From Pseudomonadota bacterium (GTDB lineage Bacteria > Desulfobacterota > Desulfobacteria > Desulfobacterales > Desulfolunaceae), in NCBI GenBank assembly GCA_018818835.1, contig JAHIRD010000092.1:1-64000 (forward strand): a DNA stretch of 64,000 nt, in the 5' to 3' direction. The position numbers and the translations under genes were made by a program. How positions within the stretch are numbered: the first letter of the stretch is position 1; each line of letters opens with the position of its first letter. Below, in pieces: positions 7,909 through 62,965 of the stretch. The notes beneath the pieces are model-generated. The model had not been told where the DNA came from. It searched no databases and saw nothing but the letters and a program-made list of their open reading frames with translations.

Positions 7909-8000
7909 CGCCAACAACCCCATTTATGGGTAGGCCTCAAACTGTTCGCATCCCCCGTGGGGGGATGCTCATAAATTTTTCTCACTGAGGCACAAAGATT
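7909..8000 (+). repeat. Dispersed repeat, copy A (inverted relative to 58187-58278)
   Basis: This stretch matches the reverse complement of 58187-58278. Shared words are CTCAAACTGTTCGCATCCCC, a GGGGGGAT stem arm, CTCATAA and GAGGCACAAAGAT. The central CATCCCCC..GGGGGATG forms a hairpin. It lies between genes and carries no reading frame. Confidence 0.75.
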
Positions 8001-8489
8001 AGATGGAATAAATACCACCGTGAATAAAATCCCGATTCTTTATTATGGGCGTGATAAGATATGCCGCGAGCGATGCTCGAAAAGCCTTTCTGAGCAGCCT
8101 TTCCTTGTAATGGCATGATATTATAGGCATAACTTTATACAGCTCCGTGGATGACATAATTATGGGCTGTGGGGAAAAAACTGATGAAATTCGGGTGATT
8201 TTTCTTGAATTTTTTTTCCTTCTGTTGTAATGAAAAATGAAGTGCCTTTTGAAGGAATGCTCAAACGCGTTTTTACCTCAAAAGAAATGTCTTGAATTGA
8301 GTCTATCTGCTGGTTCCCAAGACCGCTGATAACACGATATATAATAAATAAATATCTTTTGATATGCATAACGCTTCAAGAAACGTGCTTTGCAATGACA
8401 GCATGATAATTGTCATATCAGAGTGTTAATGAAGGTCCCGGTTTCGGGAAAACTCAGGAAATGTTTATTTTTTACAAGGAGGAGTGGTT

Positions 8490-12576: not shown

Positions 12577-12592
12577 GGTGTCTCCTATCGTT

Positions 12593-12744
12593 GATGGCGT
12601 CGTAAAAAGTCTCATATGCGGCGTTATAGTGTTTGGCCGGACGTTCGACATACGCTTCAAGTATGCCTTCATACCCGGCCAAACACTATGCCTTGCCTAT
12701 GGACCTTTTTCCATAGCCATCCGCCGATTTTTTACGAGTTCATC
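12593..12744. repeat. Terminal-inverted-repeat element, 152 bp, copy 1
   Basis: The ends are GATGGCGTCGTAAAAAGTC and the inverse of GATGAACTCGTAAAAAATC. Inside is a second inverted pair, ATAGTGTTTGGCCGG and CCGGCCAAACACTAT, then CATAC/GTATG around a 7-nt loop. The element matches 36905-37040 in the opposite orientation. Its right end overlaps the TGA stop of the SPOR gene and its left end lies 16 nt before the gatC start. Confidence 0.85.
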
Positions 12745-13468
12745 ATCGTTTGACAAAAAATCCGTCAATATTATCTTTTTTGAGGCGGCCCAGGGTGGGC
12801 TCAGCATCAATCTTGTCTTTGAACGCTCCGATTCGAACCCTGAACCAGACTTCCTTATCCCGGACCAATCCTTTGACCCAGTATGCCGGATAACCCATCT
12901 TGGTCAGCTTGGCCACCATTTTATCGGCATCATGTGATTCCTTGAGCGACGCGGCCTGGATGGTGTACTTGAATTGGGCAGGATCTTTTTTCCCAGGGTC
13001 AAATACGTGACTCGAAGGTGCTTCCGGTTTGACGTCCGGTTTGGGAGTCTCCGCCAGTTTAACGGGCTCTTTTTTAGTTATGGCCGGTTTTATGATGTCT
13101 TTTTTTTGTTTGACCACTGATTTGATTTTGGTGGCGGATCTGGCTGTGGATTGGGGCTTTTCATTGTCCACATCCTTGTTCAGCTCCTTGAAAAATACAA
13201 AGTCAGGCGCTTGTCCGGGATGGGTGTCCATGTCATTGAGTGCATCATTTTTTTCTGTTTCAGTGAGACCTGCGATTTCAAGGAAAAGGCCGTCACCTCC
13301 CATATCCACACGAATCATGCCCCGACCCACAAGGGTGCCAAGCAGAAAAAAAAGGGCCAGAAGGACAAGGATTCCTGTGCTCCAGCCCAGTGCGGCATTC
13401 TTGCTCAGGGTCAAGAAGATCTGAGACTGTTGGGGTGTTTTTACGTCGTTATTTTTCATGGTCTTCAT
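12743..13468 (-). CDS. SPOR-domain membrane protein
   Basis: This 241-residue protein has a cytoplasmic N terminus, one membrane helix at about residues 28-50 (STGILVLLALFFLLGTLV), a charged Lys/Pro-rich linker, and a C-terminal SPOR domain starting near FKYTIQAASLKESHDADK. SPOR domains bind denuded peptidoglycan at the division septum, so a cell-envelope or division role is likely. Neither start candidate (MKTM or the second Met) has a strong ribosome site. It follows argS after 23 nt, and its stop codon is the boundary of a repeat element. Confidence 0.85.
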   Translation of the reverse strand: MKTMKNNDVKTPQQSQIFLTLSKNAALGWSTGILVLLALFFLLGTLVGRGMIRVDMGGDGLFLEIAGLTETEKNDALNDMDTHPGQAPDFVFFKELNKDVDNEKPQSTARSATKIKSVVKQKKDIIKPAITKKEPVKLAETPKPDVKPEAPSSHVFDPGKKDPAQFKYTIQAASLKESHDADKMVAKLTKMGYPAYWVKGLVRDKEVWFRVRIGAFKDKIDAEPTLGRLKKDNIDGFFVKR

Positions 13469-15411: not shown

Positions 15412-15504
15412 GATGAACTCGTTAACCGTCAACGGATGGCTATAAAAAAGTCCATAGGCCAAACACGATAATTCCGCATGTGGGGGACGTGTTACGACGC
15501 CGTC
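15412..15504. repeat. Terminal-inverted-repeat element, divergent copy 2
   Basis: It begins GATGAACTCGTTAACCGTC, continues AACGGATGGCTATAAAAAAG and TCCATAGGC, and ends TTACGACGCCGTC. These correspond to the two ends and the left inner segment of the 12593-12744 element (reverse complement), with the centre shortened. Confidence 0.65.
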
Positions 15505-16532: not shown

Positions 16533-16571
16533 ATAGGTCCCATGAGTCCTATGAGTCCCATAGGTCCCATT
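16533..16571. repeat. 9-bp unit repeat (ATAGGTCCC / ATGAGTCCT)
   Basis: Four 9-bp units run head to tail: ATAGGTCCC, ATGAGTCCT, ATGAGTCCC, ATAGGTCCC. The inverse unit ATGGGACCT recurs at 62797-62838. It lies just past the 3' end of the 16602-17015 gene. Confidence 0.8.
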
Positions 16572-16601
16572 AATCGGCCTGACCCCGATTTTCCTGGTTG
16601 T

Positions 16602-24944: not shown

Positions 24945-25349
24945 GAAATACCCTTCAAAAGGTTTAAAAAACGATCAGATGTTTAATGATTGAACATTTC
25001 GACAATAATGGATAGTGTTTGGAGTGTCAAGGGCAAACATCGCCTTGTATTATTTGACAGTTAGAAGGCTTTTTTAAAGGGCTTAACATAACTTTAATTT
25101 ATGGAGATATGTTCATAGATTGTACAAAAACAAACATATTTTGAACGGTTTTTCAGATTATTACAGAGGAATATCGTCCAATCTATGAAAAAACATAATG
25201 AAAAGAGGATTGTCACCCATAGACGAACGAACGGTATATTATTTGCTGGTATCATAAGCGAAACGGGGCCCGGATAAGAAATTGTGGCTGGATGAGATGA
25301 TCGTCGTTGTGGCCGGGCCATGGACTTGTATCACCCGAGGGGGAATGTT
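24945..25349. other. Divergent AT-rich gap between kinase and acyltransferase
   Basis: About 400 bp. I see no credible gene, RNA or repeat. It must hold promoters for both flanking genes, but no box pair stands out. Confidence 0.5.
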
Positions 25350-26246
25350 ATGTTATCATTTTTACCTGGACCTGTAAGAGGCGTTCTTGCTTTTTTGCTT
25401 TATATCGCCAATACAGCGTTTTGGATCGGACCATTGGTGCTTTTTTCCATTTTAAAATTAATCATCCCCTTTCAATTCTGGCAGTATCTGTCACGAATCA
25501 TCATCGATTTTATTGCGACCTGTTGGGTGGATTTCAACAGCTTTAATCTCTGGCTGCTTCAAAGGATTCGCATCGAGGCCCGCGGATTGGAGGCCCTGGG
25601 CAAGGATATGTGGTATATCGTCGTGTCCAATCATCAATCCTGGGTGGATATTTTGATTCTTCAGAAATTGTTTCTCCGTAAAATCCCCTTTTTGAAATTT
25701 TTCCTGAAACAGGAACTGATTTGGGTTCCCCTGATGGGAGTCGCCTGGTGGGCTCTGGATTTCCCTTTTATGAAACGTTATTCAAGCAGCTTTCTTGAAA
25801 AGAACCCCCATCTTCGCGGAAAGGATATTGAAATCACACGGAAGGCCTGCGAAAAATTCAAGACCATCCCCGTATCCATTGTTAATTTCATGGAAGGCAC
25901 CCGATACACCCCTGAAAAACATCTGCGTCAGCAGTCACCGTTTTCCCATCTCCTGAAACCCAAGGCCGGTGGCATAGCCTTTATCCTGGGCTCCATGGGT
26001 GATATGGTCACAGGGATCGTTAACGTGACCATCGCTTACCCCGAAGGGGCGAAATCCTTCTGGCAATTTCTCTGCGGCCAGGTCCGCCAGGTTAAGGTCA
26101 ATGTGGAATTGATTCCCGTCAGTGAGGATATCATTGGAAACTACTTTGAAGATGAAGGGTTTCGGGAACGTTTTCAGGCCTGGGTGAATAGGCTTTGGGG
26201 TAATAAGGATAAGCAGCTTAGGGAAATGATATCCCAGGAAAATTGA
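25350..26246 (+). CDS. Lysophospholipid/1-acylglycerol-3-phosphate acyltransferase family protein
   Basis: This 298-residue PlsC-like membrane enzyme has N-terminal hydrophobic segments, then the NHQSWVD (HX4D) catalytic motif near residue 95 and the FMEGTRYT substrate motif near 185. Length and the KPKAGG segment resemble the YihG-type branch, which acylates lysophosphatidate or related lipids. GAGGGGG lies 6 nt before this ATG; an in-frame ATG 30 nt upstream lacks a site. Its TGA stop codon forms the first bases of a repeat element. Substrate specificity cannot be told from sequence. Confidence 0.88.
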   Translation: MLSFLPGPVRGVLAFLLYIANTAFWIGPLVLFSILKLIIPFQFWQYLSRIIIDFIATCWVDFNSFNLWLLQRIRIEARGLEALGKDMWYIVVSNHQSWVDILILQKLFLRKIPFLKFFLKQELIWVPLMGVAWWALDFPFMKRYSSSFLEKNPHLRGKDIEITRKACEKFKTIPVSIVNFMEGTRYTPEKHLRQQSPFSHLLKPKAGGIAFILGSMGDMVTGIVNVTIAYPEGAKSFWQFLCGQVRQVKVNVELIPVSEDIIGNYFEDEGFRERFQAWVNRLWGNKDKQLREMISQEN

Positions 26247-26340
26247 TGGCGTCATAAAACGTACCTTCTGCTGCGTTAACGTGTTTGGTCATTCATTCGA
26301 CACGCTCTATGGGCAGGCCCCTGTGCCTGCCCTATTGGCA
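26245..26340. repeat. Terminal-inverted-repeat element, divergent copy 3
   Basis: It starts GATGGCGTCATAAAACGTAC inside the TGA stop of the acyltransferase. TGCGTTAACGTGTTTGGTC and ATTCGACACGC follow, corresponding to GCGTTATAGTGTTTGGCCGG and GTTCGACATACGC in copy 1. The right end is not clear; a GGGCAGGC/GCCTGCCC hairpin sits at 26312-26334. Confidence 0.55.
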
Positions 26341-27190: not shown

Positions 27191-27312
27191 AAATGCTGTC
27201 TTGGATTTTGGTATAAATTTCTATGTGATTTTTGTGCCTCTGTGAGCCCCTTGTGTCAGGATAGTTGTTGCATGCTTTAAAAAACAGAAATCAAAAGTTG
27301 AGCAGGTGGTAC

Positions 27313-27400
27313 ATGTCCGTGTTCGTCCCTGTTAGTCCGTGTTTGTCCAGGCTATTTCTTCGTGGACGGACACGGACGAGCACGGACTGACAGGGACATT
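27313..27400. repeat. Inverted GTCCGTG repeat tract
   Basis: The left arm (27313-27349) is built from GTCCGTG/GTCCCTG words; the right arm (27371-27400) carries their complements (GGACGGACACGGACGAGCAC). Both arms meet around GGCTATTTCTTCG. The words are the same as those in the tandem array at 1-435. It lies between the 26597 gene and the converging moaA. Confidence 0.75.
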
Positions 27401-36875: not shown

Positions 36876-36904
36876 CAGCTGTAGCACGTCACGTGTTTAA
36901 GATT

Positions 36905-37040
36905 GATGAACTCGTAAAAAGTCGACGGATGGCTATGGAAAAAGGCACATAGCCAAGGCATAGTGTGGCATACACGAACGTATGTCGAACGTCTGGCCAA
37001 ATATTATAACGCCGCATATGGGACTTTTTACAAGGCCATC
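36905..37040. repeat. Terminal-inverted-repeat element, 136 bp, copy 4
   Basis: This copy matches the reverse complement of 12593-12744 along its length: GATGAACTCGTAAAAAGTCG, CGGATGGCTATGGAAAAAGG, AAGGCATAGTG, CGTATGTCGAACGTCTGGCC, TTATAACGCCGCATATG. The end is GGACTTTTTACAAGGCCATC. The central part is shorter by roughly 16 bp. It lies between the 36672 frame and the etfA terminator. Confidence 0.85.
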
Positions 37041-37045
37041 AAGAT

Positions 37046-37087
37046 TAAAAAGGCCGACTGTTTCAGTGAAAACAGTCGGCCTTTTAA
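37046..37087 (-). terminator. Terminator of the etf operon
   Basis: AAAAGGCCGACTGTTT and AAACAGTCGGCCTTTT form a perfect 16-bp stem around 6 nt; on the minus strand it ends in TTTTT. It lies 23 nt after the etfA stop. Confidence 0.92.
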
Positions 37088-47883: not shown

Positions 47884-47930
47884 AAAAAGGGGTGGATGTT
47901 TCGCTCCATGTGTCATAGGTGATCCCTAAG

Positions 47931-48443
47931 ATGATTCAAAAAAAATTCTGTCCTTACTGTGCAGGCCCTCTTGTTGAATCCCAAATTGAAGGCCAATTGC
48001 GCAAACGCTGCACTCAATGCCAGACAATCCTTTACGAAAATCCGGTTCCGGCTGCCTGTGTGGTTCTGATTGACAGCCAGGAGCGTGTGCTTCTGGCCAA
48101 ACGGAAGGTGGACCCCAAGGCGGGTTACTGGTGTCTTCCCGGAGGTTTTGTGGAACTTGGGGAGAGCCCCGAAGAAGCGGCCATACGAGAACTCCGCGAA
48201 GAAACGGGGCTACAGGGAAAGATTGATATGCTTCTGGGTGTTTCCGTGGACCCCCATCCCGATTATGATACCGTACTAATCACCGCCTTCTTGATCAGGT
48301 CCTTTCAGGGCTCAATCATGGCCGGGGATGATGTGTCCCGTGCAGATTTCTATTTTTCCGAAACCCTTCCCGACATCGCCTTCAGGAGCCATAGCCATTT
48401 CATACGCCATTATTTCAGCGCCTACTCCAGAGACCACAAATGA
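47931..48443 (+). CDS. Nudix hydrolase with N-terminal zinc ribbon
   Basis: This 170-residue protein starts with a zinc ribbon (CPYCAGPL and CTQCQT) and contains a full Nudix box, GGFVELGESPEEAAIRELRE with EETGL following. The ribbon-Nudix layout is typical of NudC-like or ADP-ribose/NADH pyrophosphatases; the substrate is not determined. AGGTG lies 9 nt before this ATG; a GTG 12 nt upstream is possible. The TGA stop forms the start of a repeat-element end. Confidence 0.92.
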   Translation: MIQKKFCPYCAGPLVESQIEGQLRKRCTQCQTILYENPVPAACVVLIDSQERVLLAKRKVDPKAGYWCLPGGFVELGESPEEAAIRELREETGLQGKIDMLLGVSVDPHPDYDTVLITAFLIRSFQGSIMAGDDVSRADFYFSETLPDIAFRSHSHFIRHYFSAYSRDHK

Positions 48444-48458
48444 TGGCGTCGTAAAACA
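48442..48458. repeat. Solo end of the terminal-inverted-repeat element
   Basis: GATGGCGTCGTAAAACA follows directly from the TGA stop of the Nudix gene. It equals the left end of the 12593-12744 element; no second end is visible before the flagellar genes. Confidence 0.6.
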
Positions 48459-58119: not shown

Positions 58120-58207
58120 TCTCTCACGGAGGCACAAAGATCACAGAGAAGGGCAAGCGCTTGGGAATGATAGTTTTTTCTTTGTGATCTTTGTGCCTCT
58201 GTGAGAA
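58120..58207. repeat. Inverted pair of the GAGGCACAAAGATCACAG repeat
   Basis: TCTCACGGAGGCACAAAGAT with CACAGAGAA (58121-58150) and its complement TTTGTGATCTTTGTGCCTCT with GTGAGA (58180-58206) face each other and could form a long hairpin. Shorter copies of the word occur at 7981-7999 and 27222-27246. Confidence 0.7.
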
Positions 58208-58278
58208 AAAATTATGAGTATCCCCCCAAGGGGGATGCGAACAGTTTGAGACCGACACGCAAATGGGTTGGGGTAGTT
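58187..58278 (-). repeat. Dispersed repeat, copy B (inverted relative to 7909-8000)
   Basis: Read on the minus strand it follows copy A closely: ACCCCAACCCATTTGCG, CTCAAACTGTTCGCATCCCC, a GGGGGGATAC arm, CTCATAAT and GAGGCACAAAGATCAC. About three quarters of positions appear to match. Confidence 0.75.
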
Positions 58279-62796: not shown

Positions 62797-62838
62797 GGAC
62801 GTATGGGAATAATGGGACCTATGGGACGTATGAGCCCC
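62797..62838. repeat. 9-bp unit repeat (ATGGGACCT / ATGGGACGT)
   Basis: GGACGTATGGGAATA is followed by ATGGGACCT, ATGGGACGT and ATGAGCCCC in head-to-tail 9-bp steps, the inverse of the 16533-16571 units. It lies directly after bpt. GGGGTGCC and GGACACCCC at 62862-62908 may form a weak terminator between bpt and the converging scaffold gene. Confidence 0.7.
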
Positions 62839-62965
62839 ATATCAGCATTGGATAAGCTAATGGGGTGCCATGATCTTCAGTGACTTTAAAAAATCAGTTG
62901 GACACCCCTTTAACATCCGGCTACCCATTTATCAGGTACAGTCGGCAAGCTCTTTATTTCAACCC

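Follow-up and report, generated by a model that had tools for sequence, protein, structure and literature searches.

The window analysed here, a stretch of 64,000 nt, carries five copies or remnants of a single element, at 12593-12744, 15412-15504, 26245, 36905-37040 and 48442. Two of these (12593-12744 and 36905-37040) retain both ends together with a perfect 6-bp duplication. The former is a whole copy of 152 bp on the plus strand (running from a left end at 12593 to a right end at 12744, as judged by ends, duplication and length), which sits between a SPOR-type gene (12743-13468, minus strand, 241 aa) and a gatC-like open reading frame. It is flanked by the target duplication ATCGTT at 12587-12592 and 12745-12750, where the T at 12745 opens the SPOR stop codon on the minus strand; the GA of that stop is the right end of the element, and the gene ends in CGA-TGA. 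The copy at 36905-37040 (136 bp, minus strand) is flanked by AAGATT at 36899-36904 and 37041-37046 and does not lie at a stop codon. A minus-strand terminator-like hairpin (37080-37053) has its T tract a few bases from the left end of this copy, whose duplication, AATCTT on that strand, adjoins the tract (window 37041-37080). The short copy at 15412-15504 (93 bp, minus strand) has a duplication with one mismatch, AGGTTC/AGGTTT. The two remaining sites are left-end remnants on the plus strand. At 26245-26288, a similarity of ~44 bp gives the GA of the TGA (26244-26246) of an acyltransferase-like gene (25320-26246, plus strand, 308 aa, ending in ...SQEN-TGA), and at 48442-48456, 15 bp do the same for the TGA (48441-48443) of a Nudix-like gene (47919-48443, plus strand, 174 aa, ending in ...RDHK-TGA). 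Both gene names stem from an earlier, sequence-only reading of the window. Its starting observation, that the element junction lies within TGA in three of the five copies (for the SPOR gene at 12745-12743 on the minus strand), stands as read. It had also placed a hairpin at the 3′ end of the messages. Of the three, the 12593 copy alone is whole; at the acyltransferase and Nudix sites just ~44 and 15 bp of left-end sequence are kept, and the hairpin of the MITE is therefore absent there.

In the genome from which the window comes (6.75 Mb, 334 contigs), 15-mers of the left and right ends have 287 and 286 matches with at most two mismatches, 573 in total. Reversed control patterns give 8 and 11 matches, so part of the solo ends are chance. 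Our sample comprises 134 merged stretches (1.98 Mb), picked mostly around perfect end matches, which leaves worn copies under-sampled; it holds 357 ends with at most two mismatches (175 left and 182 right) against the 573 genome-wide, with 126 paired copies and 127 solo ends. The terminal inverted repeats, GATGGCGTCGTAAAA and GATGAACTCGTAAAA, are alike at 12 of 15 positions in inverted orientation. The modal length is 151 bp (40 of the 126 paired copies), with no transposase inside. Agreement between the flanks peaks at a length of 6 (106 copies), and the 6-bp duplication is perfect in 49 and has one mismatch in 34 of the 126 paired copies, together 83. It takes the form A(A)NN(T)T within the target YYAANNTTRR; the logo of the empty site is nearly symmetrical and much the same in the 55 intergenic copies away from stop codons. 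A T precedes GATG in 203 of 225 perfect ends, making the junction mostly T|GATG. The consensus folds strongly as RNA on both strands (z -8.1 and -9.4). As means over the 83 full-length copies, the left-to-right RNA strand folds at -57.4 and the right-to-left strand at -68.1 kcal/mol, a gap of ~11; the right-to-left strand is favoured in mean folding energy in every context group of these copies.

Inverted repeats, a target duplication, a short body that lacks a transposase, ends in common with an autonomous element and an empty site (at one site) make the identification of the element as a ~151-bp foldback MITE well supported in its anatomy. Shorter lengths recur among the paired copies, 93 bp seven times and 47 bp five times, and could represent sub-versions that are themselves mobile or deletions that arose repeatedly. 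Among the 127 solo ends, 59 retain less than 20 bp of the element, and a search for a hidden second end (CATC plus duplication) succeeded in 2 of the 127, compared with 1 when duplications were shuffled. A standard terminator or promoter was considered as the identity of the repeat and rejected, as a scan of two copies placed no such site wholly inside a copy: one terminator lies beside, one promoter-like site outside, and one weak promoter-like site straddles an end. A known RNA family was likewise rejected, the window yielding only two tRNAs at gathering scores.

A candidate for the autonomous partner occurs in a single-contig genome of the same order (G017). At ~1.9 kb, it matches the MITE in the kind of its ends and in being flanked by a 6-bp duplication (AATCTT), and it encodes a DDE transposase of 585 aa that scores above the Pfam cut-offs for DDE_Tnp_1_6, DDE_Tnp_1 and DUF772. 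Its best NCBIfam model is IS1182 (NF033551; 163.3 bits, E 9e-48); since the cut-off of 270 is not reached, we label it only as IS1182-related. The genome of the window itself has, at contig ends, 11 identical copies of a longer element in which the right end of the MITE is followed by ATG. This suggests that the element was recently copied and that the repeat was lost from the bin; its interior was not found in the genome bin. The eleven contigs that break in these copies include, for example, L036, L045, L058 and L161-L168. A search of this bin with the distant transposase as query, run without a positive control, found no transposase gene.

Of 40 genomes searched, the own one included, 22 have related ends. 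A 29-base piece of the element, searched against named genomes (among which records of the window's own genome may be missing), has 31 matching stretches, all in one Desulforapulum autotrophicum MAG, a result that agrees with a host related to that organism. The loci from other genomes provide 57 distinct ends, 21 of which face a gene, and 4 of these 21, in three genomes, have a stop codon beginning at -1. A T stands before 53 of the 57 ends, a figure that is inflated because 28 of the loci came from a T-initial search pattern. In G025, which belongs to another family of the order, GATGNNNTCGTAAAAAGTC has 302 matches (146 and 156 per strand), with GATGGTC and GATGGTT prevailing among the matches listed; this is a large expansion of ends.

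Across the 1.98 Mb tabulated, the excess at stop codons, on which the earlier reading had staked itself beforehand, is present: the T of a stop codon coincides with the base before the element in 30/175 left ends versus 2/182 right ends (Fisher p = 2.5e-8). Stop positions derive from our own codon-usage model (1360 genes), with no reference annotation behind them. The left ends spread as 30 at -1, 23 at -7 to -2, 12 at -15 to -8, 5 at -30 to -16, 4 at -60 to -31, 3 at -90 to -61 and 0 at -150 to -91; the right ends, over the same bins, as 2, 5, 4, 10, 9, 3 and 6. Near-stop ends are thus 53/175 on the left versus 7/182 on the right (a Fisher test that took in near-stop left ends used 52 of them, and a recount gave 53). 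An earlier pass with the same codon model produced the same picture from 323 ends: 142 faced a coding frame with a stop at -400 to +120, and the stop began at -1 in 30 of them and over -30 to -2 in 51.

When flanks are joined across copies at -1 that have both ends and at most one duplication mismatch (n = 14), 11 of the 14 sites have a native stop (TAA, TAG or TGA) at the same codon, all of them rewritten as TGA. In the other three, the joined frames stay open until stops at +29, +38 and +116, giving trims of 10, 13 and 39 codons. This set leaves aside 11 solo ends at -1 and, as unreliable, five end entries (from four copies) with more than one duplication mismatch, of which none has a stop at the codon as paired by the script. 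The SPOR gene is an example of regeneration: its rebuilt empty site reads AAA CGA TAG, and its closest homologue, in a genome without the element at this place (G001), ends in CGA TAG. The acyltransferase and Nudix sites have no second end from which joined flanks could rebuild a native stop. At its C-terminal end the acyltransferase matches the length of its closest homologue, with some distant homologues longer by up to ~24 residues; the Nudix protein exceeds its closest homologue by three residues, and single distant homologues are longer by more than 24 residues. The C-terminal comparison that the earlier reading had proposed thus speaks against trimming in the window, as the closest homologues of the three proteins are not longer. 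Insertion in a native stop regenerates it as TGA and leaves the protein unchanged; trimming is the exception.

The sequence-only reading had offered a choice between an element that targets TGA and one whose insertion supplies the stop and trims the host protein. The actual mechanism lies between both, and the proposal is partly supported. From its first half, the excess at stops stands and the specificity for TGA falls, the TTRR half of the target fitting every stop codon and TAA and TAG stops being struck as well. From its second half, the element does supply the stop, in that its GA replaces the last two stop bases, only that a native stop was already there in 11/14. Trimming would mean that the element enters coding sequence near the 3′ end and that its TGA makes a new, shorter protein end. 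It is what happened in 3/14 testable copies and may have happened at six further ends (five left, one right) where the gene runs into a TAA at element position +10. As the rule, we reject it: it conflicts with the native stops at the same codon and with the untrimmed proteins of the window, even though some of their distant homologues are longer, and as an account of the pattern it is very improbable.

The exact spike at -1 follows from the target sequence, a stop being a T and two purines; this does not hold for the crowding near stops. Once target preference is corrected for, left-end density per 1000 weight units is 3.8 at -1, 4.3 at -7 to -2 and 0.17 at -60 to -31; the density at -1 equals that at -7 to -2, hence the spike needs no extra recognition of the stop codon. 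What the target sequence leaves unexplained is the crowding of left ends, without right ends, near stops (~20-fold). From target preference, 0.5 left and 0.4 right ends would be expected on native stops, where 10 and 1 were found; at gene edges the expectation is 2.1 left ends versus 12 observed. The right end serves as an internal control: it also has GATG after T, with a similar mean target weight at stops (5.7 vs 6.8 for the left end). We reject the idea that the T|GATG junction or the gene calls created the pattern artificially, since right ends share the junction and have a similar weight, yet reach only 2/182. Among the 83 clean copies, 11 sit on a native stop's T, a stop overlaps the duplication in 12, 5 are in coding sequence and 55 are intergenic. 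Relative to these 55, target preference would place 101 copies in coding sequence; this strong avoidance means that selection acts on where copies remain.

The asymmetry is seen in several ways. Left ends lie at -7 to -1 in 28/83 full copies, 7/41 short copies and 17/58 solo ends (two longer paired copies fall outside these groups), and right ends in 4/126 paired copies and 3/69 solo ends. With at most two duplication mismatches, the median distance to the facing 3′ end is 8 nt for left ends (56 cases) and 125.5 nt for right ends (28). Between convergent genes, where a full-length copy faces a 3′ end on both sides, 12/16 left ends and 3/16 right ends are near a stop. Within the window's genome, copy divergence was rejected as a cause, as the near-stop share stays flat however far copies have diverged from the consensus (9/27, 10/28 and 9/28). 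In G001, 1/15 readable left ends is near a stop, and that one is worn (p = 0.07, falling to 0.012 if the worn copy is excluded); one of these 15 probably matches by chance, within coding sequence.

Our preferred reading, to which we assign a probability of roughly 0.7, is that of a non-autonomous MITE served by an IS1182-related DDE transposase, with a junction that regenerates stops and with left ends crowded near stops by selection. The transposase would move the MITE into YYAANNTTRR and duplicate 6 bp. Where the stop T of a gene forms the final base of the duplication, the gene keeps a stop, the GA of the element replacing the last two bases to form TGA. Near-stop left ends would then be the insertions that survive, as an insertion right after a stop should leave protein, promoter and leader intact. 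According to the available text of PMC4824070, a ribosome positioned at a stop shields ~10 nt past it, and terminator hairpins within that stretch are repressed by it; the less tightly folding left-to-right RNA strand may make that orientation the tolerated one. Selection is our favoured cause of the crowding, as an inference, and the avoidance of coding sequence speaks for it; the single near-stop left end in G001 also fits the joint reading. Against it, selection would have to be strong and orientation-specific (10 vs 0.5 and 12 vs 2.1 expected), and over time it should produce the divergence trend that the copies lack. The joint reading also has to accommodate the five mismatched entries at -1, which have no stop at the codon when joined, and the own genome bin, in which the distant query found no transposase gene.

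A rival reading is guided insertion. A transposase complex directed with fixed polarity to the ends of translation or transcription would lay the left end beside the stop; the left bias overall and between convergent genes, the fading of the effect within ~15 nt and the flat relation with divergence are all consistent with it. Combined with ends that rebuild stops, such steering would amount to a safe-site strategy that relies on stop codons across the genome, an idea we hold as doubtful. The nearly symmetrical target logo tells against steering, as does G001, where copies are more uniform and near-stop left ends rare, and we know of no such mechanism for a DDE transposase; we consider guided insertion unlikely. 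Less likely still is co-option, in which the structured element after a stop would alter translation or stability of the upstream message and copies would be kept for that. The strong fold, the 28/83 full copies with a left end at -7 to -1 and the precedent of REP sequences in E. coli (available text of PMC12306157) agree with it, but solo left-end remnants lie near stops about equally often, and the element is reduced to under 20 bp in 59/127 solo ends. Selection on surviving insertions remains our reading of the crowding, and the left/right asymmetry offers a natural test between a transposon that senses termination and selection that sorts orientations afterwards.

Some integrases rebuild the 3′ end of the gene they target, with tens of bases of att identity at one site. 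The MITE resembles them in inserting at gene 3′ ends and in restoring displaced bases, and differs in that it is a dispersed transposon that restores two bases at many sites. REP sequences are mobilised differently (REP/RAYT), as a short palindrome inserted without target duplication, unlike the 6-bp duplication and ~151-bp length found here. As in the REP of E. coli, palindromic repeats, a share of which lie at most 15 nt after stop codons, are at hand, but the available text of PMC12306157 does not report REP to supply a stop codon, as this MITE does. The likeness to IS-derived bacterial MITEs is close: short, non-coding, with inverted repeats, a duplication, IS-shared ends and hundreds of copies, as described in the available text of PMC10969869; unlike in those, the junction here rebuilds stops and one end crowds at them, and the words "stop codon" are absent from the main text of that review. 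The partner transposase belongs to the same broad family as IS1182, which includes IS1272 (PMC5678879), its score of 163 bits setting it apart from the 270-bit cut-off. Palindromic targets are cited there for some family members, and IS1272 replaces an inverted repeat without duplication in that account (available text of PMC5678879), as opposed to the 6-bp duplication made here. The literature searched, with most subscription journals outside it, held no description of the repeat or of a stop-rebuilding transposon. The element is a MITE of an IS1182-related insertion sequence, with a junction that regenerates stops. It means that a dispersed DNA transposon can use the stop codon, the commonest landmark of a compact genome, as a protein-sparing site, and this sparing rests on an element that starts with the two bases completing a T-initial stop.

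The window also contains other repeats. At 1-505 lies a 101-bp tandem repeat with four units of GTCCGTGTCAGTCCGTG-like pieces, and a related inverted stretch is found at 27359-27397. A second dispersed family, TTTCTTTGTGATCTTTGTGCCTCTGTGAG, occupies 7919-8012, 27218-27246 and 58122-58267, and includes a 94-nt inverted pair, 85% alike, as well as a local one at 58122-58206. A third type, ATGAGTCCTATGAGTCCCATAGGTCCCAT, is present at 16542-16575 and 62807-62840 in inverted orientation.
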